From positions 2,679,501 through 2,743,500 of the forward strand of contig NC_014828.1 in the NCBI RefSeq assembly GCF_000178115.2: DNA of 64,000 bases, given 5' to 3'. Below are positions 18,091 to 28,389 of the stretch, one piece after another. The position numbers were made by a program, and so were the translations under genes. Origin of the DNA: Ethanoligenens harbinense YUAN-3 (GTDB taxonomy: Bacteria; Bacillota; Clostridia; Oscillospirales; Ethanoligenentaceae). The notes under the pieces are model-generated. The model was given only the letters and a program-made list of their open reading frames with translations. It was not told where the DNA came from and ran no database searches. Within the stretch, counting starts at the first letter, position 1, and every line of letters starts with the position of its first letter.

Positions 18091-18756
18091 TCAAGACTTC
18101 AACAACAGCCCGAAAAGCAGACAGCAGAGAACAACCGACACCGCGATGACGCACAGCACCAGCGTGACATACGAAGCCGGGAAACGCCCGTTGTAGATGG
18201 CACCCAGACGGGAAGACCGGTAGACCGTCCGGAATGCCAGCACCCCTTTTTGCTGCGTCCCGTCGAGATACAGGCGATACCCGGTTTCGTCTCGTTCCTG
18301 GCGGTAAAACACCGCACCGTCCATCCACTGCCCCTGTGCCGGGCGGAGTTCCAGCGTAAAGCGCCTGCCCTTTGCATGCTCGACCGGCGTGAATGAGACC
18401 CGGACAAACCGGGATTTGTCCACATACGCCAGAGCGACGGTCTGCCGCGTTACGACACGGCCGGCATCATCCTGCAACTGCACCAGCACCGCCGCACCGG
18501 GCTGCGGACTGTCCGGTGTGATCTTGACGGCGATGCCGCAGAACGCGTCTTCGCGCACAATGAACGTCTGCCGGATGGCACCGATCCGGTTCGGCACCGT
18601 GATTTTGCTGAGGGCATATGGCGTTTCGATCCGTGTTTTTTGACGGGGCAGCTCATGGTAGAGCGCAAACAGCACCGCTGCCGCCAGCAACAGCGGCAAC
18701 AGCAGGGGCAAGAGCCGGGAAAGGCGCTCCGGCAGATACAAACGGGCTGTATGCAT
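18091..18756 (-). CDS. membrane protein with exported domain, last gene of the glycan operon
   Basis: 221 residues with a membrane helix near each end (about 15-33 and 195-218) and a roughly 150-residue extracytoplasmic beta-rich domain between. I recognise no named family. The topology resembles lectin-like or carbohydrate-binding accessory domains that accompany GT-C glycosyltransferases. The start at 18756 is chosen because GGAGAGGAAGA immediately precedes that ATG. It follows the GT-C gene in the same direction with overlapping ends if the longer frame is used, so the two are co-transcribed. Confidence 0.7.
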   Translation of the reverse strand: MHTARLYLPERLSRLLPLLLPLLLAAAVLFALYHELPRQKTRIETPYALSKITVPNRIGAIRQTFIVREDAFCGIAVKITPDSPQPGAAVLVQLQDDAGRVVTRQTVALAYVDKSRFVRVSFTPVEHAKGRRFTLELRPAQGQWMDGAVFYRQERDETGYRLYLDGTQQKGVLAFRTVYRSSRLGAIYNGRFPASYVTLVLCVIAVSVVLCCLLFGLLLKS

Positions 18757-18794
18757 TCTTCCTCTCCTCTCTCTCGCGCGAAAAACGGCTGCGG

Positions 18795-20093
18795 TCACTG
18801 CACGAAATAATAGCCAAACAGGCGCTGATAGACGCAGAACAGCTGCACCAAAACAAACCCCAAAGACACCAGCAGATAAAACCAGCGCTTCACCCGCCCG
18901 GCAAGCACTTTTTCAAACCCGAGAACCAGCAGGAGCACGATGGCCACCAGCCCCGGGTACATATACCGCCCCTGCGGCTGAAAATCACTGGTGAGCGAAT
19001 AATGGGCATGCAAAGCAAACGCCCCGAGCGCCACCAGCGGCAACATCAGAGCAAACGGGCGGTGAAACAGCGTGCGCCACCCCTGCCGGAGCTTCTCCAT
19101 GAACGCCGCGGAAAGACCGACAAACGCAAGTACATGCAGGCCGAAAATGCAAAGATAATAATCGGGGTTGATCGACAGGCTCATCGAACCGAACGTGGCC
19201 CAGAACGAGCGGAACGTTTCCAGCGGCCAGACGGTATCAAACAGCATATCCGCAAATCCGCGCAGATGGATGGTGGACGCCAGCCGCACCGACGGTTTAT
19301 CTTTACCCGTCGCCAGCCGCTCCGCGATGCGGTCGGTGGTGGAAAGGCCCAGCAGGTCACCGTGGTACAGCAGGCCGCTGCGGATGAAAAACCAGCCGCT
19401 CACCGCCGCCATAATGCCCACACAGAGCAACAGTTTGCCGTAGAACGCACGCGTCCCCCTCCCCCGGTAGGACAGCAGTACGATGACGAACGACGCCGCG
19501 ATCAGCAGATAGCCGTTGATATAGGTCAGCAGCATCACGCCCAGCACCACGCCCAGCCATGCCGTCGTTCGGATGCTCCAGTTGTCTTCCAAGCCTTTCA
19601 GCCAGAGAAACATCGTGGCCGCGCTGAGCATGACCATAAACGCATCCTGATTGGTGTAGGCGCAGATGAACGCGAACTGCGGGATAAACGCGAAAAACAG
19701 CGGAACAAACCGCCGGGTGATCATCTCGCGGAACAGCATGCCCGCAATACGGTGAACGAAGTAAACCGCCGCGACGCCCGCGCCGACCGAAACCATGCGC
19801 GAGACCAGATACGGCGCCGCGGAAATGCCCACGCCTTTGGCAAACATGCACAGCAGCGCGGAGAGAATATAGGAAAAAAACGGCATGGCGGCATAGGTCT
19901 GCCCGGCAGCATAGGAAAGGCGCGGATCGCCGGCCACCGGCAACGCATGGTAACGCAGGATGAAGTGTACGATATCAAAGCGCAGCGGCTCGTCCGGCCC
20001 CGCACCGAACGGCAGGATGAGCGCCCATGAGAAATACAGCACAAAAACGGCGGACAGCAAAACTGCAAGATAGACGCGGTCGTTTTTCTGCAT
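18795..20093 (-). CDS. GT-C fold membrane glycosyltransferase (GT39/DUF2142-like)
   Basis: 432-residue polytopic protein with about 11-12 membrane helices. The first extracytoplasmic loop contains FGAGPDEPLRFD, an acidic DE pair in the position used by GT-C enzymes such as ArnT or protein mannosyltransferases. It should transfer a sugar from an undecaprenyl-phosphate donor to an acceptor outside the membrane. The start is uncertain: the MQKND ATG at 20093 follows the aminotransferase stop by five bases; a GGAGG lies further upstream. Operon context (lipid-linked GT, flippase-like pair, aminotransferase) agrees with an Arn-like role. Confidence 0.8.
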   Translation of the reverse strand: MQKNDRVYLAVLLSAVFVLYFSWALILPFGAGPDEPLRFDIVHFILRYHALPVAGDPRLSYAAGQTYAAMPFFSYILSALLCMFAKGVGISAAPYLVSRMVSVGAGVAAVYFVHRIAGMLFREMITRRFVPLFFAFIPQFAFICAYTNQDAFMVMLSAATMFLWLKGLEDNWSIRTTAWLGVVLGVMLLTYINGYLLIAASFVIVLLSYRGRGTRAFYGKLLLCVGIMAAVSGWFFIRSGLLYHGDLLGLSTTDRIAERLATGKDKPSVRLASTIHLRGFADMLFDTVWPLETFRSFWATFGSMSLSINPDYYLCIFGLHVLAFVGLSAAFMEKLRQGWRTLFHRPFALMLPLVALGAFALHAHYSLTSDFQPQGRYMYPGLVAIVLLLVLGFEKVLAGRVKRWFYLLVSLGFVLVQLFCVYQRLFGYYFVQ

Positions 20094-20098
20094 CGCGT

Positions 20099-21277
20099 TC
20101 AAGCCAGAACCTCCCGGTCCGCGCTGCGCGTTTTGCAAACCGCGGTGTGTTGATAAAAGGCATGGACCGCGTCCACCACCGCCATCTGATCCGCGGCGCT
20201 GATCCCGAAATAGAGCGGCAGGCGGCAGATGCGTTCGCTTTCCCGGGTGGTGTAACGGTCTTCTCCGTGGAAGCGGCCGTATTTCCGGCCGGCCGTGGAG
20301 GAATGCAGCGGAATATAATGGAACACCGCGTCCACGTCATGCTCCTTGAGCCACGCGAGCAGATGGCTACGCTCCTCCAGATCACGGCATTTCAAGTAAA
20401 ACATATGGGCGTTGTGCGCGCATTCCGGCGGCACCACCGGCAGCTCGACGCACCCGGCCTCCGCCAGATCGGCAAGCGCCGCACGGTAAAACGCCCAAGC
20501 GCGCAGCCGGTCCTGAAAGATCATGTGCGCCTGCTCCAACTGGGCGAACAGATAGGCCGCATTGAGATCGCTGGGCAGATAGCTCGAACCGATGTCCACC
20601 CAGGTGTATTTGTCGATCTCCCCACGAAAAAAGCGGCTGCGGTCGGTGCCTTTTTCCCGGATGATCTCGGCGCGGGCGGACTGCTCCGCATCATCCAGCA
20701 GCAGCGCGCCGCCCTCCCCCATCGAGTAATTCTTCGTTTCGTGGAAACTGAACGCGCCAAACCGCCCAATGGTGCCCAGGAACCGCCCTTTGTACCGCGC
20801 AAGGAACCCGTGCGCCGCATCCTCCACCACCGTCAGCCCATGGCGGGCGGCAATGGCGCAGATGGTGTCCATCTCGCAGGCCACGCCCGCGTAATGCACC
20901 GCAACGATAGCGCGTGTTTTTTCGGTGACGGCATCCTCAATCAGCCGCTCGTCGATATTCAGCGTATCCGGCCGGATATCGACGAACACCGGCACCGCCC
21001 CCCGCAGCAAAAACGCATTGGCGGTGGAGACGAACGTATAGGACGGCATGATGACTTCGTCCCCGGGCCGGATGTCACAAAGCATGGCGGCCATCTCCAG
21101 CGCGTGCGTGCCGGAAGTGACCAACAGCGCACGCCGCACACCGAAGCGTTCCTGCATCCAGGCACTGCATTTGCGGGTGAATGAACCGTCGCCGCTGATC
21201 TTGTGGTTGACTTTGACCGCTTCGGCAATATAGTCCAATTCTTTGCCGACAAACGGGGGTACATTGAAAGAGATCAT
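20099..21277 (-). CDS. wecE: DegT/DnrJ/EryC1/StrS aminotransferase, WecE/RffA type
   Basis: 392-residue PLP enzyme. Strong resemblance to dTDP-4-amino-4,6-dideoxygalactose transaminase throughout: FNVPPFVGKELD, GDGSFTRKC, GDEVIMPSYTFVSTANAF, HYAGVACEMDTI, VVEDAAHG and YIPLHSS. The PLP lysine is in SFHETKNYS (K182) and the cofactor Asp in VEDAAH (D153). It converts a dTDP-4-keto-6-deoxy sugar to the 4-amino sugar using glutamate. No rmlA/rmlB homologue is in the window, so the precursor must be made elsewhere. Specificity is inferred from family only. Confidence 0.9.
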   Translation of the reverse strand: MISFNVPPFVGKELDYIAEAVKVNHKISGDGSFTRKCSAWMQERFGVRRALLVTSGTHALEMAAMLCDIRPGDEVIMPSYTFVSTANAFLLRGAVPVFVDIRPDTLNIDERLIEDAVTEKTRAIVAVHYAGVACEMDTICAIAARHGLTVVEDAAHGFLARYKGRFLGTIGRFGAFSFHETKNYSMGEGGALLLDDAEQSARAEIIREKGTDRSRFFRGEIDKYTWVDIGSSYLPSDLNAAYLFAQLEQAHMIFQDRLRAWAFYRAALADLAEAGCVELPVVPPECAHNAHMFYLKCRDLEERSHLLAWLKEHDVDAVFHYIPLHSSTAGRKYGRFHGEDRYTTRESERICRLPLYFGISAADQMAVVDAVHAFYQHTAVCKTRSADREVLA

Positions 21278-21315
21278 GATTTCCTCCGAAACACTGTCCT
21301 CCGACCACTGCGGGA

Positions 21316-21651
21316 TCAGAGATAAAAAATCAGCACGCCCGCCACGATGAGCAGATTGCCCGCCAGCTTGCGGCGGGTGATTTTTTCCCGAAAAAACAGG
21401 CGGCTGAGGACCAGCACAAACAGGTAACCCAAAGATTCGATCACCGGCGCGTTTTTGAACGCCAGCCCTTTAAACGCCGCGACCGTAAGCAGCGTGGAAC
21501 ACAGCAGCAGGGCGTAGGCGCCCAGCGTCCAGGGATTACAATATTCGGCCAGAAAGCCCCTGTGCGACCGGCCGGCCCCGGCCTTCAACAGCAACTGAGA
21601 AACCGACGCCACCGCCACCGACAGCACCAGCAGTGCAATATACCCGTTCAT
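21316..21651 (-). CDS. SMR/EamA-type half-transporter B
   Basis: 111-residue, four-helix protein of the small multidrug resistance/EamA fold, similar in size and pairing to the ArnE/ArnF subunits that flip undecaprenyl-phosphate-linked aminoarabinose. Its ATG overlaps the stop of the preceding half-transporter by four bases, so equal synthesis and heterodimer formation are likely. Substrate inferred from context: the lipid-linked sugar made by the GT2 of this operon. Confidence 0.8.
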   Translation of the reverse strand: MNGYIALLVLSVAVASVSQLLLKAGAGRSHRGFLAEYCNPWTLGAYALLLCSTLLTVAAFKGLAFKNAPVIESLGYLFVLVLSRLFFREKITRRKLAGNLLIVAGVLIFYL

Positions 21652-22028
21652 GCCTGTCCCTCTTGGTCGGTGTTCACCAGCAGCACGCCCGCAAAGATCA
21701 CGCCCACACCCAGCAGGTTGCGCAGAGTAATTTGTTCGCCGAACACCGCCGCCGAAATCAAAAGCCCCCAGAAAACCGCCACGCTCCGGTTGGCATAGGC
21801 GGTGGTTAGGCTCATGCGCTTAACAGCCTGCTGCCACAGCAGCGCGTAAGCGCCCAACAGCACCAGCTCGGCACCGTAATACAGGAAAAAGCCCGACGAA
21901 CCGAATGCGTGGCCGGACGCAAACTTCGCCGCTGCCGAAGCCGCCGCGTAGACCGCCACCACGCCCTGCAAAAACAGCAGAAGCACCCACCGCCTGCGGG
22001 GCAGCCGCTTTCCTTTCCGGCTGCTCAT
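21648..22028 (-). CDS. SMR/EamA-type half-transporter A
   Basis: 126-residue four-helix protein with a basic N-terminal tail (RKGKRLPRRR), which should hold the N-terminus inside. Contains the YANRSVAVFWGLLIS and LLGVGVIFAGVLL helices typical of EamA halves. The start overlaps the ATP-grasp stop by four bases (ATGA) and its end overlaps half-transporter B by four bases. Confidence 0.8.
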   Translation of the reverse strand: MSSRKGKRLPRRRWVLLLFLQGVVAVYAAASAAAKFASGHAFGSSGFFLYYGAELVLLGAYALLWQQAVKRMSLTTAYANRSVAVFWGLLISAAVFGEQITLRNLLGVGVIFAGVLLVNTDQEGQA

Positions 22029-23182
22029 TGCGGCACGGCCTGCGCAAAACCCAGCAGGGAGCGCAGGCGCACAAACCGCTCATCCGCGCACGCACCAAGA
22101 TAATAACCAAGGCGGTTGGAACTGTCAGTCACCGGCCGGCCGGCCGGCGGCTCGATGGCGCTCACCCGCCGCAGCACGTCCGGAGCCTCTTCCTGCATGA
22201 CGTGCAGGGTATCCAGATCAGCCTGCCCGAACAGGAAGCGCACGAATGCCGTCTGTGGAACCGAAACGGGCGTAAAGTCCGGCGCCTTTCCACAGGCGGC
22301 GTCCAGCGTCATCCGCAGGAAATCATGCCCGGTGGAGAGCCGCACCAAGTCGGAGCCGATGCAGTCGCCGCCCATCCGCGCACCCACCTCAATGAGCCGC
22401 ACCTCACCGGCCGACGTGACCTTGAACTCCGCGTGCGAAGCGCCGCAGGTGATTTCCAGCGCGTCCAGCGCGGCAAACACCGCATCCCGCACCGCGCCGG
22501 GTGGCACCGGCGCGGGCTGGACATGCCCGGTCTCTATGAAGTGGGGCGCGCCGGTGGTAAATTTCTGCGTCACTGCCAGCAGCCGGTGCCGTCCCCGGAA
22601 GGAGATGCTCTCGGCACTGTATTCGTCGCCCTCAATGTACTCTTCCACGATGGCCTTTTTCTCAAAGGAACAGCCAACGCACCGCGCGACCGCTTCCCGC
22701 AGGGTTGCCCGGTCTTCCACACGCGTCACACCGCGGCTGCCCGAACGGTCGGTCGGCTTGACGATGAGCGGGAACGGCGCATCCACTGCATCGCTCTCCG
22801 CCGGGGATGCCACCTCCCAAAAGCGAGGCGTGGGAATGCCCCGCTCCCGAAACCGCCGCCGCATACGGAACTTGTTGGTGGAAACCGCCGCGCAGGCCTC
22901 GCTGTTACCCGGCAGGCCAAGCCGGGCGGCCAGATAGCTCACGGTGGGCACAGCCAGGTCGGAGCCGATGGAAAACACGCCGTCCAGCCGAAGCGGGCGG
23001 CAGATCTCCAGGATGCGCTCCTTTTCGGTGATGCTTACCGGGTAGAAATGATTAGCCGTATCTTTTCCCACCGCGCCATCGGCCCACGCAAACACATGCG
23101 TGGTGTATCCAAGCGATTTGGCCAGCAGGATGGCTTGATTCTGGAAATCGTTTGCGCCGATGATGGCAACCGTATGCCCCAT
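22025..23182 (-). CDS. ATP-grasp ligase
   Basis: 385-residue ATP-grasp enzyme of the carboxylate-amine ligase type. A pre-ATP-grasp Rossmann-like domain (VAIIGANDFQNQA at the N-terminus) is followed by the grasp domain with PLIVKPTDRSGSRGV (ATP lysine and glycine loop), AIVEEYIEGDEYS, and LIEVGARMGGD carrying metal-binding Glu/Asn-equivalent residues. ATP-grasp members in polysaccharide loci often join a carboxylate to an amine. Here the WecE-made 4-amino sugar is a plausible amine; that is inference. The ATG at 23182 is preferred over an upstream frame that runs into the GT2 gene. Confidence 0.85.
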   Translation of the reverse strand: MGHTVAIIGANDFQNQAILLAKSLGYTTHVFAWADGAVGKDTANHFYPVSITEKERILEICRPLRLDGVFSIGSDLAVPTVSYLAARLGLPGNSEACAAVSTNKFRMRRRFRERGIPTPRFWEVASPAESDAVDAPFPLIVKPTDRSGSRGVTRVEDRATLREAVARCVGCSFEKKAIVEEYIEGDEYSAESISFRGRHRLLAVTQKFTTGAPHFIETGHVQPAPVPPGAVRDAVFAALDALEITCGASHAEFKVTSAGEVRLIEVGARMGGDCIGSDLVRLSTGHDFLRMTLDAACGKAPDFTPVSVPQTAFVRFLFGQADLDTLHVMQEEAPDVLRRVSAIEPPAGRPVTDSSNRLGYYLGACADERFVRLRSLLGFAQAVPQ

Positions 23183-23186
23183 CCCG

Positions 23187-24170
23187 TCAGACCCCCGCTG
23201 TGTTCTTCTGCGCGCAGACCCGCTCGGCGGCACCGGAACCGGTGGGCGGCTGGGGCTTGATGACATACTGCGGCGTCTGGTTCACACTCAGATAGATCCG
23301 ACCGATGTACTCGCCCAAAATGCCCACCGACAGCAGCTGCACGCCGCCGATGAACAGCATGATGACGATGGTGGAGGTCCAGCCCACCTGGATATCCTGC
23401 CCGGAGAGCTTGAGAATGAACAGCACCGCCGTCATCACAAACGCGCACAGCGCGATGACCGCCCCCGCAAACGACGCGATACGCAACGGCCTGACCGAAA
23501 AATTGGTGAACCCGTTCATCCAGAGCTGCACCAGTTTCACCAGCCCGTAGCCGGAGCGACCGGCGTGCCGGGCGGCGTGCCGGATGGGGATGCTGGCCAC
23601 GCTGCCGGTCACCAGCAGGAACAAGCCGGGCAGATAGGGGAACGGCTTGTCGTAGCGTTTGACCACATCCACCACATACCGCCTGGCAATAAAATAGCTG
23701 GAGGTATGGATATTGCACGGTTTGTTCAGAATAAACGTCTGCATCTGTTCGTTCAGCGCCGTGCCGAAATTGCGGAAAGCGCTGTGCTTTTTCTGCTCGT
23801 AATAACCGTAAACCACGTCGAAACCGCCGCTCTGCATGGTATGGTAAAGCTTCGGGAACTCCTCCGGCGGGGTCTGCAAATCGTCGTCCAGGCAGACCAC
23901 ATAGTCGCCGGTAATCTGGTTGAGCCCGGCCATCAGCGCGTTGGCCTGCCCGAAATTGCGCGCCAGCCGGAACGACCGCACATACGGCAGCTCCACCGCA
24001 AGCTGCCGGCAGACGGTATACACGCCGTCCCGGCTGCCGTCATCTACCAGCACGATCTCAAAATCCAGCGGCGTTTCCAATGCCTGTACGGCCGCCGCGA
24101 TGCGCCGGACCACCGACGCAATGGTGTCTTTGGAATTGTAGACCGGCACCAAAAACGATAGCTTTTCCAT
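23187..24170 (-). CDS. GT2 glycosyltransferase with two C-terminal membrane helices (ArnC/GtrB/DPM1-like)
   Basis: 327 residues. GT-A domain begins MEKLSFLVPVYN, with VLVDDGSRDG (about 40-49) and the metal-binding CLDDDLQTPP (DDD 95-97). Two long membrane helices (about 225-250 and 262-286) follow, as in ArnC, GtrB and dolichyl-phosphate mannose synthase-like enzymes that load a sugar onto undecaprenyl phosphate. The ATG at 24170 follows AAAAGGGG. First gene of the seven-gene operon. Confidence 0.88.
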   Translation of the reverse strand: MEKLSFLVPVYNSKDTIASVVRRIAAAVQALETPLDFEIVLVDDGSRDGVYTVCRQLAVELPYVRSFRLARNFGQANALMAGLNQITGDYVVCLDDDLQTPPEEFPKLYHTMQSGGFDVVYGYYEQKKHSAFRNFGTALNEQMQTFILNKPCNIHTSSYFIARRYVVDVVKRYDKPFPYLPGLFLLVTGSVASIPIRHAARHAGRSGYGLVKLVQLWMNGFTNFSVRPLRIASFAGAVIALCAFVMTAVLFILKLSGQDIQVGWTSTIVIMLFIGGVQLLSVGILGEYIGRIYLSVNQTPQYVIKPQPPTGSGAAERVCAQKNTAGV

Positions 24171-24266: not shown

Positions 24267-24295
24267 AGTATATCGACCTCGCGAATACCTGTCAA
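24267..24295 (-). promoter_or_regulatory. sigma-A promoter of the seven-gene glycan operon
   Basis: Minus-strand TTGACA (24295-24290), 17-bp spacer, TATACT (24272-24267), about 97 bases before the GT2 start. Near-consensus. Confidence 0.85.
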
Positions 24296-24531: not shown

Positions 24532-25791
24532 ATGTGTATGCAAACAAAAACCCACAAACAACTGTTCGCCTGTTTTCTGGCTGTTTTGCTGATTGTTTTC
24601 GCAGCCCTGCCGGCCGAAGCGAAAACGGCGGAAATCCGCTCGCCTGTCTACACCGCTCTGGGTGATTCCATTGCCAGCGGGTATAAGCTCAACCAAAGCA
24701 ACAACGGCTATGTCGGCCTGTTCGGGTCCTATCTGTCCGCCCAGACGACCAACCTGGCGCGCGTCGGGCTGGACAGCGCCGGCCTGCTCAAGCTGCTCAA
24801 CTCCGACCAGGCCACGGTTGACCAGGTGAAAAAATCCGATATCATCACCATTTCCATCGGTGGAAACGACCTGCTGCCCATCTTTTCCGCCCTCCAGCCA
24901 ACGTCGCCCACCTCGCTGGTCGCCGCCGTGCAGGCCATCAACGGCAACGCGATGCAGCAGAAATTCCAGAACGCCGTGACGCACTTCGGGCAGAACTGGG
25001 ACAAAATCATCGCGCAGATCAAAAAACTGGCCCCCCACGCGCAGATCATCGCCACCACACTGATCGACCCCTATGAGGGCATGGTCATCAGCGTGCCGGT
25101 CATCGCGCACTTCGACCTGGGCGGCTATGCCGACGGCTACATCAAACAGATCAACGCGGTCATCACCGGGCACGCGAAGTCCGGGCAATACGCCGTGGCA
25201 GATGCATACGGCCTGTTCATGCAGCACAAAACGGACAAGCTGACCAACGCCGACCTCGCCAAGCTCGATTTCGACCCGCATCCAAACGCGGCGGGGCACC
25301 GCCTGCTCTTTCAGGCGCATCAGGCCGTGGCTCTTGATTTTACGCAGGACGCGCTGGCTCTGAGCGGACCGTCGCGCATCGTCATCCCCGCCGACGGCAA
25401 AAGCAGCCACGCACAGTTCTCCGCGCAGCCGCTCCTCTCCTGCTTCACCACGGCGAACGCATCCGCTCAGACCGCCTACACAATGGAAGACCCCGGCGCC
25501 ACCGGTGCCGCCATCGACGTCTCCACCGGCACCTTATATGTGTACAAACCCGGCACCGTGAAGATCAAAGCCACGCTCACCACGGCCAACGGGAAACTGT
25601 CCGCGGAAACGATCCGGACCATCCGCGTGACCCAGGCGCTGGTTACACAGGCCGAGTGGAAACAATGGGCTGTGCCCGCCGGCATCGGGCTGGCCGTGCT
25701 GGCGGCCGTGTTGCTCATCCTGCTGCTCCCGCGGCGTAAAAAGCGCCGGCCGCACGACCTCCCGGCAGACAGAGAAAAAACCCCCGTTTGA
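24532..25791 (+). CDS. secreted SGNH/GDSL hydrolase with C-terminal membrane anchor
   Basis: 419 residues. Signal peptide (about 1-30, ending LPAEA), then an SGNH esterase domain with block I ALGDSIASG (Ser46), SIGGNDLL (Gly-Asn of the oxyanion hole, 110-113) and FDPHPN (D248, H250). A beta-rich, Big-like segment (about 275-375) leads to a membrane helix and a basic tail LPRRKKRRPH, which would leave the catalytic part tethered outside. Probably a carbohydrate or lipid esterase acting on the envelope. ATG at 24532 or 24538 are both possible; GGGG at 24527-24530 favours the second. Confidence 0.88.
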   Translation: MCMQTKTHKQLFACFLAVLLIVFAALPAEAKTAEIRSPVYTALGDSIASGYKLNQSNNGYVGLFGSYLSAQTTNLARVGLDSAGLLKLLNSDQATVDQVKKSDIITISIGGNDLLPIFSALQPTSPTSLVAAVQAINGNAMQQKFQNAVTHFGQNWDKIIAQIKKLAPHAQIIATTLIDPYEGMVISVPVIAHFDLGGYADGYIKQINAVITGHAKSGQYAVADAYGLFMQHKTDKLTNADLAKLDFDPHPNAAGHRLLFQAHQAVALDFTQDALALSGPSRIVIPADGKSSHAQFSAQPLLSCFTTANASAQTAYTMEDPGATGAAIDVSTGTLYVYKPGTVKIKATLTTANGKLSAETIRTIRVTQALVTQAEWKQWAVPAGIGLAVLAAVLLILLLPRRKKRRPHDLPADREKTPV

Positions 25792-27158: not shown

Positions 27159-28214
27159 TCATTTCTCTACGCGGAACGGATACGGCGGCGAATGGGCATC
27201 GGTTTCACCCTCCACCCCGTCGGACTTTCCCGCCACACCGCCCTGACCGATCTCCACCCGGCCGGCCTGCGCGCGCAGGTATTCTTCAATGTGAAAACGT
27301 GGGCGGTGTTTGGTTTCGGCATAGATTTTGCCGATGTATTCACCCACGATGCCCAGCGCCAGCAACTGCAACCCGCCCAGGAACCAAATGGAGCAGACCA
27401 CGCTGCTCCACCCCGGCACGGCCCAGCCCGAAACATGCGCGGCCAGCACATAGAGAAACGCGACGATGCTGGCAAGCAGGATGCCGAGCCCCAGCCACGC
27501 GAGCAGGCGGATGGGCTTGACCGAAAAGGACGTGATGCCGTCGAACGCAAACGCCAGCATCTTGCCCAGCGGATACTTGGATTCGCCCGCCACACGCTCT
27601 TTGCGCTCGTAGGGCACGCAGGTGCTTTTGAAGCCGATAAGCGGCACGATGCCACGCAGAAACAGGTTGACCTCCCGATAGTCCGCCAGCGCGTCCAGCG
27701 CACGCTTGCTCATCAGGCGGTAATCCGCGTGGTTGAAGACCATCTCCACGCCCATGGCGCGCATGAATTTGTAAAAACCCTCCGCCGTGGTGCGTTTGAA
27801 AAACGTATCCTTTTCGCGGCTGGAACGCACGCCGTAGACGATGTCGCAGCCGCCCTCATACTCTTCCAGAAAGCGATCCACCACGTCGATGTCGTCCTGC
27901 AGGTCGGCGTCCATCGAAACGACCACATCCGCGCTTTCACGGGCAGTCATCAGCCCGGCCAAAAGCGCATTCTGATGCCCGCGGTTGTGCGAGAGCTTCA
28001 CGCCCGCGAACAGTGCGTCCGTCTTCACCAGTTCCTCGATCTTTTCCCATGTCCGGTCTTTAGAGCCGTCGTCCACAAACAGCACGCGGCTCTGAGACGC
28101 GGCGCGTCCGGCGGACTGCAGCGCCCGCATTTTTCGGTAGAGGATCTGCGCCGTGATCGGCAAAGCCTCTTCTTCATTGTAGCACGGAATCACAAAATAG
28201 ATGATATCGGCCAT
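27159..28214 (-). CDS. GT2 glycosyltransferase with two C-terminal membrane helices (CsbB/YkcC-like)
   Basis: 351 residues, same architecture as the GT2 at 23187 but a different subfamily: IPCYNEEEAL, VLFVDDGSKDRTWE, SMDADLQDD, then two membrane helices (about 230-255 and 268-292) and a hydrophilic tail. It should make an undecaprenyl-phosphate-linked sugar. The ATG at 28214 follows AAAGGGG. It is transcribed away from the two-component system at 28431. No GtrA-like flippase is adjacent. Confidence 0.85.
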   Translation of the reverse strand: MADIIYFVIPCYNEEEALPITAQILYRKMRALQSAGRAASQSRVLFVDDGSKDRTWEKIEELVKTDALFAGVKLSHNRGHQNALLAGLMTARESADVVVSMDADLQDDIDVVDRFLEEYEGGCDIVYGVRSSREKDTFFKRTTAEGFYKFMRAMGVEMVFNHADYRLMSKRALDALADYREVNLFLRGIVPLIGFKSTCVPYERKERVAGESKYPLGKMLAFAFDGITSFSVKPIRLLAWLGLGILLASIVAFLYVLAAHVSGWAVPGWSSVVCSIWFLGGLQLLALGIVGEYIGKIYAETKHRPRFHIEEYLRAQAGRVEIGQGGVAGKSDGVEGETDAHSPPYPFRVEK

Positions 28215-28389
28215 ATCAGGCAACCCCTTTCCCGCTCAACGCGGAATCGCTCGCCGTGCGATCTTTGGTGTTTCTGTCTGCAGTATACCGTTGTTATGTG
28301 ACAAAATCGTGAAGAGCGTCTGAACACTGCGCGAAAGGCGAAAAGACATGATTTTTTCAGTTTTTCACCACCCTGTCACACAGGTGCGG

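Follow-up and report, generated by a model that had tools for sequence, protein, structure and literature searches.

A mostly conserved operon of Ethanoligenens harbinense YUAN-3 with the predicted parts of a lipid-linked amino-sugar glycosylation system

What does a Gram-positive bacterium do with genes that, at first sight, recall the modification of lipid A with an amino sugar? The question is raised by seven genes in a 64,000-nucleotide stretch of Ethanoligenens harbinense YUAN-3 DNA (positions 2,679,501 to 2,743,500 of contig NC_014828.1; the whole stretch is called the window below), part of a genome that consists of a single contig of 3,008,576 bases. The original prediction, made from the sequence of the window, read them as an Arn-like amino-sugar decoration pathway and gave roles to five of the seven, the ATP-grasp ligase, which is the most informative gene, and gene 7 being left without one. 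We find an operon that is real, mostly conserved and functionally coherent, an uncommon assembly of ordinary parts, and we read it with moderate confidence as an extracytoplasmic glycosylation system linked to undecaprenyl phosphate (Und-P) that handles an N-capped 4-amino-4,6-dideoxyhexose, most likely 4-amino-4,6-dideoxygalactose (Fuc4N). The lipid-linked route of the original prediction is supported by an ArnC-like GT2 enzyme, a pair of small multidrug resistance (SMR)-type proteins, a GT-C transferase and the presence of RmlA and RmlB in the genome, whereas the supposed mirroring of the Arn pathway is not.

The seven open reading frames (ORFs), all in the leftward direction, span 24170 to 18091 of the window, where they had been placed, behind the one near-consensus promoter that had been described (Table 1). 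A promoter scan returned 5 promoter-like sites compared with 2.5 ± 1.8 in shuffles, so that it is the quality and position of this particular site that carry the weight. The stop codon of the GT2 gene is separated by a gap of 4 bases from the ATG of the ATP-grasp gene, the ATP-grasp/SMR1 and SMR1/SMR2 junctions are each an ATGA overlap, in agreement with the overlaps of about 4 bases first noticed in the middle of the operon, and 38 bases lie between SMR2 and WecE. The WecE/GT-C junction is a TTGA overlap if TTG at 20102 is taken as the start, ATG at 20093 being the alternative, and the GT-C/gene 7 junction is a GTGA overlap with the GTG start at 18798, or else a 38-base gap to the ATG at 18756.

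Table 1 Features of the operon and its ends (window positions; family matches are Pfam with E-values where given)
Feature	Position	Strand	Remarks
Sigma-70-type promoter, TTGACA-17-TATACT	24267..24295	-	11/12 consensus; 96 bases 5' of GT2 ATG; assigned by consensus match alone
Gene 1, GT2, polyprenyl-phosphate sugar transferase, ArnC/GtrB-like, 327 residues	23187..24170	-	Glycos_transf_2 2.3e-30
Gene 2, ATP-grasp carboxylate-amine ligase, L-amino-acid-ligase-like, 385 residues	22025..23182	-	ATP-grasp_4 1.4e-20
Gene 3, SMR/EamA subunit 1 (SMR1), ArnE-like, putative flippase subunit, 126 residues	21648..22028	-	EamA 1.7e-07
Gene 4, SMR/EamA subunit 2 (SMR2), putative flippase subunit, 111 residues	21316..21651	-	EamA 8e-08
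Gene 5, WecE, dTDP-4-oxo-6-deoxyglucose 4-transaminase, 392 residues	20099..21277	-	DegT_DnrJ_EryC1; product dTDP-Fuc4N by family
Gene 6, GT-C integral-membrane transferase, ~435 residues	18795..20102	-	PMT_2 3.2e-08; start TTG 20102 or ATG 20093
Gene 7, transmembrane helix + beta-rich domain + transmembrane helix, 221 residues (235 if GTG 18798)	18091..18756	-	
Perfect inverted repeat, 17-bp arms, 3-base loop	17883..17919	.	computed; between operon end and convergent + strand rpsR

The aminotransferase of the operon is WecE and not ArnB. It exceeds the curated cut-offs of both WecE models (TIGR02379, 607.2 bits versus 434.85; NF008687, 606.5 versus 375), its nearest solved structures are of the WecE type (6blg, 1.4e-160; 4piw, 1.3e-157), the lysine K182 singled out in the original prediction is present as the pyridoxal phosphate lysine, and the genome holds a single copy over cut-off; the ArnB model NF008658 gives 206.7 bits and misses its cut-off of 631. 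The nucleotide sugar is therefore dTDP-linked by family, and the proposal that the set mirrors arnB-arnC-arnEF-arnT does not hold. RmlA and RmlB, for which a look elsewhere in the genome had been recommended, are both found over cut-off at 1.675-1.680 Mb (479.9 and 484.8 bits, respectively) with RmlC- and RmlD-like ORFs (by eye) between them, so the dTDP-4-oxo sugar should be available. No LpxC match was found in the genome by a search whose control was positive in 4 of 14 genomes; lipid A is therefore not expected, as had been assumed. WecD was likewise without a match in the genome, and one LytR-CpsA-Psr protein is over cut-off. As a separate observation, the genome's rml genes (L084, 4583-13374; L and G are our labels for loci and genomes) adjoin an ABC-exporter-like pair, of the polysaccharide type by eye, and a glycosyltransferase-like ORF of 883 residues, and the region probably serves a rhamnose polysaccharide and is a candidate for the acceptor pathway.

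The ligase is the gene that gives the operon its own character. The best match of its profile among solved structures is the L-amino acid ligase BL00235 (3vot, 2e-41), BacD follows at 9.2e-24, and L-amino acid ligases or BacD account for 5 of the best 7 matches. With BL00235 and BacD the protein shares two acidic residues 13 apart and an arginine 4 residues after the second, and K104, K142, E180, E252, E265 and R269 are invariant in 7 aligned ligases, the window's included. On our reading, the enzyme would amidate the 4-amino group of the sugar, at the point where ArnA would formylate and WecD acetylate it.

The neighbourhoods of other WecE genes bear on this role. In a class-wide sample WecE was found at E<=1e-100 in 34 of 391 genomes, in 31 of them over cut-off, and neighbours within 6 kb were counted at 33 of the 34 loci, the window's own being left out. 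An ATP-grasp protein occupies the presumed capping slot at 13 loci (6 close to the window's ligase, 7 distant), a GNAT protein at 7 and a hexapeptide protein at 2; ATP-grasp and acetyltransferase (GNAT or hexapeptide, 9 loci) are found together at 0 of 33, with a p of 0.004 that ignores relatedness and is optimistic because 5 of the 7 GNAT loci come from one genus (g42). Mutual exclusion of ligase, GNAT and hexapeptide protein is what would be predicted for proteins that all have the same 4-amino group as their target. Four loci (L053, L054, L056, L077) in which the ATP-grasp-family signal came solely from the epimerase half of a fusion were entered as being without ATP-grasp, and a further GNAT about 6.5 kb from WecE in a nonulosonate-like cluster (L057) was left out of the count. 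Two of the 7 distant ATP-grasps were scanned, the one at L080 having the L-amino acid ligase domain LAL_C2 and the one at L072, fused to an epimerase, being without it.

A group of loci in this sample stands apart. At L078, L080, L081 and L083, and also at L067, L074 and L075, the genes for WecE-like aminotransferases adjoin ABC transporter genes that look by eye to be of the NitT/TauT type; the first four also hold an ATP-grasp and a GT2, and two scanned neighbours are Sulf_transp (PF04143). These loci look like an amino-sugar system of a different kind, linked to sulfur or sulfonates.

Conservation in other genomes makes most of the gene set more than a product of chance, gene 7 excepted. 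The 6 of 33 WecE loci with a close ligase have a GT2 nearby in 6 of 6, the SMR pair in 4 and a related GT-C in 3; one of them (L055) ends just after WecE, and all six core genes occur together at L058 and L059. From the side of the ligase, we took the best 80 of 427 relatives in GTDB contigs, a set that for this reason leans to close relatives; 73 of these loci hold WecE, 69 a GT2 and 60 both SMR genes, and among the 41 loci with enough flank the counts are 38 for WecE, 36 for GT2, 31 for the SMR pair, 9 for GT-C and 0 for gene 7. Co-conservation, which the original prediction had proposed as a check, thus holds for genes 1-5, in part for gene 6, and fails for gene 7. At E<=1e-90 the ligase profile picks out 10 of the 391 genomes, nine of which reach at least 562.9 bits. 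All nine of these close-ligase genomes (the window's included) have WecE, which in the whole sample occurs in 34 of 391; with relatedness ignored, p is about 1e-10, and 1e-9 if the window's genome is left out. Blautia caecimuris, Faecalicatena contorta, Hespellia stercorisuis and Longicatena caecimuris are among the sources of ligase loci that hold WecE. Two occurrences lie further afield: in the spirochaete Treponema ruminis (L111) WecE and ligase, 62% and 53% identical to those of the window, lie within 2.2 kb, suggesting transfer between gut bacteria, and a Candidatus Saccharibacteria record (L129) has WecE, ligase, GT2 and GT-C together, which could reflect transfer or mis-binning.

The remaining parts are those of a lipid-linked route. 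ArnC (9hwj, 4.4e-49 over residues 2-305) and the glycosyltransferase sll0501 (5ekp, 3.9e-38), which we take to be GtrB, are the closest solved structures to the GT2, as its designation as ArnC/GtrB-like implied. Its best NCBIfam model is also ArnC, at 191 bits with a missed cut-off of 529, and the PgfS model NF047588 reaches 168.1 bits and misses its cut-off of 500. The enzyme is predicted to be an Und-P-sugar synthase of the three-component type.

Structural matching keeps gene 6 among the GT-C enzymes, where it had been put for its likeness to ArnT. A model computed from 18 sequences (the fragment at L097, one of 18 GT-C loci, was left out of alignment and model) has a pLDDT of 84.9 and a pTM of 0.88; in Foldseek 20 of 20 matches at E<=0.001 are GT-C enzymes, ArnT (5f15 and 5ezm) included, and VIA-align gives Z 24.1 for Pmt4 (root mean square deviation (rmsd) 4.0, 378 aligned) and Z 22.5 for ArnT (rmsd 4.3, 346 aligned). 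A single-sequence search of the PDB with gene 6 gave no match at E<=1, and no NCBIfam model was matched by gene 6 or gene 7. An acidic P-D-E motif, in a loop that would lie outside, is invariant in 5 aligned sequences and not so in the 18-row alignment, 4 rows of which start after the motif. Within the window's own family, a GT-C search found 1 of 4 genomes, its own one.

The SMR/EamA pair retains the family proposed for it, only weakly, and misses the cut-offs of ArnE and ArnF. The best NCBIfam model is ArnE for subunit 1 (33.5 bits, cut-off 92) and ArnF for subunit 2 (23.5 bits, cut-off 99). ArnE was matched at E<=0.001 by 23 of 23 subunit 1 sequences scanned (the window's and 22 of 49 found), and the 24 subunit 2 sequences scanned (the window's and 23 of 60 found) matched TIGR03340 in 9 cases, ArnE in 7 and ArnF in 6. 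SMR exporters have an acidic residue in the first membrane helix, Glu14 in EmrE. At positions 9-33 neither subunit of the window has an acidic residue and none is invariant in the alignments, which comprise the same 22 of 49 and 23 of 60 sequences; an acidic residue occurs somewhere in that range in 9 of 23 aligned sequences for subunit 1 and 14 of 24 for subunit 2. SMR proteins have been proposed as exporters of other lipid-linked sugars in passages of two reports (PMC11127046, PMC7389260), and a flippase role for the pair would be in line with this.

In the route that we propose, RmlA and RmlB, encoded elsewhere, would provide dTDP-4-oxo-6-deoxyglucose, WecE would aminate it at C4, and the ATP-grasp ligase would join the new 4-amino group to a carboxylate as an amide, the carboxylate being most likely that of an amino acid. 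The ArnC-like GT2, presumably acting after the cap has been set, would transfer the sugar to Und-P, the SMR heteropair would flip the Und-P-sugar, and the GT-C enzyme, for which gene 7 may act as a separately encoded outer domain, would transfer the sugar to a surface acceptor. A precedent for the third step is found in Clostridium difficile type B flagellin, where, in passages of two reports, the terminal peptidylamido-sugar depends on an ATP-grasp gene (PF13535) that lies close to one for an FdtB-like aminotransferase, and N-3 of 3-amino-3,6-dideoxygalactose (Fuc3N) carries a taurinyl-Ala-Gly unit whose glycine acylates it (PMC5207246, PMC5207245). An ATP-grasp amino acyl ligase is also listed for a different sugar cluster of clostridia (PMC4000134), and Fuc4N is predicted in the capsule of C. 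butyricum (PMC12342839). Near the 80 ligase loci an RmlB-like family recurs at 28, an RmlA-like family at 15 and an export ABC ATPase-like family at 15 (representatives named by eye), which points to a cell-wall polysaccharide, our first guess for the acceptor, with protein as the main rival.

Several findings weigh against this reading. The second-best structure for the ligase is titled phosphoribosylglycinamide synthetase (2.3e-39); no NCBIfam model is over cut-off and amino acid ligases are not singled out, the best model being NF002563, argininosuccinate lyase (151.6 bits, cut-off 625, first third matched), and BacD and the PurT-type formyltransferase score about alike (27.7 and 26.6 bits). 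Neither ATP-grasp nor GNAT or hexapeptide protein lies within 6 kb at 11 of the 33 WecE loci, and ligase and GNAT occur together at 2 of the 80 ligase loci. At these 80 a GT-C relative was recognised in 18 and gene 7 in none, and many of the GT2s counted are only 24-32% identical to the window's, some of them on the other strand. TIGR03340 is commoner than ArnE or ArnF among the relatives of SMR subunit 2. In 2 of the 9 close-ligase genomes the ligase is unlinked to WecE (on another contig in G244, about 53 kb off in G352) and sits with a different type of GT2 and no SMR pair, and G352 has a GNAT beside its WecE. The distant tenth ligase (G092, 316 bits) belongs to a genome without WecE at E<=1e-100; its neighbours there are a phosphoglycosyltransferase-like ORF (by eye) and an ORF that shares 25% identity with WecE. 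Finally, in the passages concerned, the authors of the C. difficile work favour another gene for acylation of the sugar and assign the ATP-grasp gene to the peptidyl part (PMC5207246, PMC5207245).

The alternative that survives best leaves the chemistry in place and moves the acceptor: the sugar may end on a protein (flagellin, pilin or S-layer) by O-glycosylation like that of Pgf in Streptococcus mutans or of C. difficile flagellin, which we regard as possible, if rather doubtful. The match of the GT2 to PgfS fits with it, as does the best Z of the GT-C model, which belongs to a protein O-mannosyltransferase (Pmt4), and the aminoacylated Fuc3N of the C. difficile passages sits on flagellin. 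Shortly after the cassette at L058 (10034-12764) there are pilB/pilC/pilin-like ORFs (by eye), a possible protein acceptor there. The GT-C fold does not, however, predict the acceptor, the rows for Pmt, ALG12, oligosaccharyltransferase (OST) and ArnT all lying within Z 22-24.1; the operon contains no surface-protein gene, and the family found at 15 of 80 ligase loci resembles a polysaccharide-export ABC ATPase by eye.

It is unlikely that formate, a hydroxy acid or another non-amino acid is what the ATP-grasp enzyme attaches to the 4-amino group, in place of the ArnA formyltransferase, the rest of the route being the same. The GT2 has ArnC as its closest solved relative, and ArnC takes its name from a formamido sugar; the operon lacks a formyltransferase domain, and the formate-dependent PurT-type model scores like BacD on the ligase. 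Among solved structures, however, the top match and most of the first seven belong to L-amino acid ligases or BacD, and one of the two distant ATP-grasps scanned has LAL_C2. Less probable again is a ligase that makes a dipeptide or another small amide rather than a sugar amide, with the genes grouped only because both serve the envelope: BacD-type ligases make dipeptides and two genomes keep the ligase apart from WecE, but the constant company of WecE in close-ligase genomes, the exchange with acetyltransferases in the capping slot and the genetic precedent in the C. difficile passages all speak for the sugar. That the SMR/EamA pair exports drugs or metabolites and has nothing to do with the glycosylation genes is highly improbable, since its weak profile matches to EmrE chains (0.03 for subunit 1, 0.0033 for subunit 2) and the Ebr and Qac matches of some relatives are set against its linkage with the ligase at 60 of the 80 loci and the matching of ArnE by most subunit 1 relatives.

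Gene 7 has no Pfam or NCBIfam family above cut-off, and its single-sequence model is weak (pLDDT 57.7) and was kept out of the fold search; the best PDB match (CD22, E 0.15) is not meaningful, and phmmer against the six-frame ORFs of loci L051-L164 and the window returned only gene 7 itself. Matches at E<=1 occur in 46 of 391 genomes, below 0.005 only in G329 besides its own. Its middle part resembles the N-terminal part of a protein of 668 residues from the same class (E 8.3e-9, reverse 3.1e-8, pairwise 5e-10), the remainder of which is DUF2142 (3e-64), a family of membrane proteins. A reverse search with this protein gave E<=1e-6 in 1 of 245 genomes, the window's own, the query genome being evidently outside the sample. 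A comparison of the GT-C profile with the DUF2142 protein (hhalign probability 81%, 295 columns) is suggestive only, and genes 6 and 7 could be the separated halves of one transferase, a possibility that draws on a single fused example. A similar domain suspected from a pattern hunt in proteins of about 880 residues at L065 and L066 is not claimed, the profile comparison being weak (probability 8%, E 0.0041).

At its 3' end the operon faces convergent + strand genes that resemble rpsF-ssb-rpsR by eye. The inverted repeat between them is a possible terminator; no T-run follows it on either strand, and the terminator scan did not call it. Directly upstream of the operon lies a divergent ORF of 419 residues (24532-25791, + strand) whose product, by eye, resembles a secreted hydrolase of the SGNH type anchored in the membrane at its C-terminus, and a second GT2 (27159-28223, - strand; Glycos_transf_2 1.2e-22) is found about 3 kb upstream.

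Beyond this locus, we put forward tentatively, as an idea of less than even strength, that Clostridia and some other gut bacteria might have an undescribed surface display of amino acids, in which a 4-amino 6-deoxy sugar, dTDP- or Und-P-linked, is amidated by the ligase, flipped by the SMR pair and placed on a wall polymer as a sugar-borne counterpart of D-alanylation. The cap enzyme would be an interchangeable module, whether ligase, GNAT or hexapeptide acyltransferase, and would determine how the decoration is charged, and the amine cap would be predictable from the module beside wecE. If this is true, many gut Clostridia bear an aminoacylated dideoxy amino sugar on their surface, which could alter the charge of the surface, the adsorption of phages, the sensitivity of the cells to cationic peptides and host recognition; such surface effects are known for 4-amino-4-deoxy-L-arabinose (L-Ara4N) on lipid A and for D-alanine on teichoic acids. 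No description of the present gene set was among the matches listed in open-licence PMC literature (titles and starts of abstracts), and Fuc4N together with ATP-grasp gave no match in the same literature.

Several known systems share parts of the set. The Arn pathway (ArnB-C-A-D-T-E-F, L-Ara4N on lipid A) likewise has a pyridoxal phosphate aminotransferase giving a 4-amino sugar, an ArnC-like GT2, two SMR-type subunits and a GT-C enzyme of the ArnT fold, whereas here WecE stands for ArnB, the sugar is a dTDP-6-deoxy sugar by family, there is an ATP-grasp ligase instead, and there is no LpxC. In Arn, formylation of the amine by ArnA precedes the ArnC step, and the cap is taken off by ArnD. Across the seven genes there is no formyltransferase (ArnA) or deacetylase (ArnD) domain, the rest of the genome not having been searched, and the absence of ArnA from the set had been correctly noted. 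The cap set by the ligase would stay, since the operon has no deacylase, and the pathway would end in an aminoacyl sugar instead of a free amine, so that a simple Arn analogy is weakened. The parallel is a functional one. The label "arn operon" was considered and dropped: the cut-offs of ArnB, ArnC, ArnE and ArnF are missed, ArnA and ArnD are absent from the operon, and LpxC has no match.

Enterobacterial common antigen biosynthesis (wecE/wecD) has in common a WecE over cut-off, and differs in that here WecD has no match, a ligase stands for the acetyltransferase and the route would run through Und-P with a single sugar. Pgf of S. mutans shares a GT2 resembling PgfS, below cut-off, and differs in that here an aminotransferase, a ligase and an SMR pair are present. 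Common to C. difficile flagellin glycosylation, as far as the passages go, are a sugar aminotransferase, a PF13535 ATP-grasp gene and an amino acid on the sugar amine; FdtB-like 3-amination, a FemAB-like acyltransferase and the flagellin acceptor are that system's own, and SMR or GT-C genes do not figure in those passages. Three-component transmembrane glycosylation (teichoic acids in Listeria and Bacillus; GtrA/GtrB/GtrX) is established in Gram-positives according to passages of two sources (PMC8035078, PMC7389260), and SMR, ArnE and EamA are absent from the main text of the first. An Und-P-sugar synthase, a small flippase (the latter putative here) and a GT-C transferase are common to those systems and to this operon, in which an EamA/SMR pair takes the place of GtrA/GtcA and an aminotransferase, a ligase and gene 7 are added; it is with these multi-component Und-P glycosylation systems, and not as a member of Arn, that the operon is best filed.

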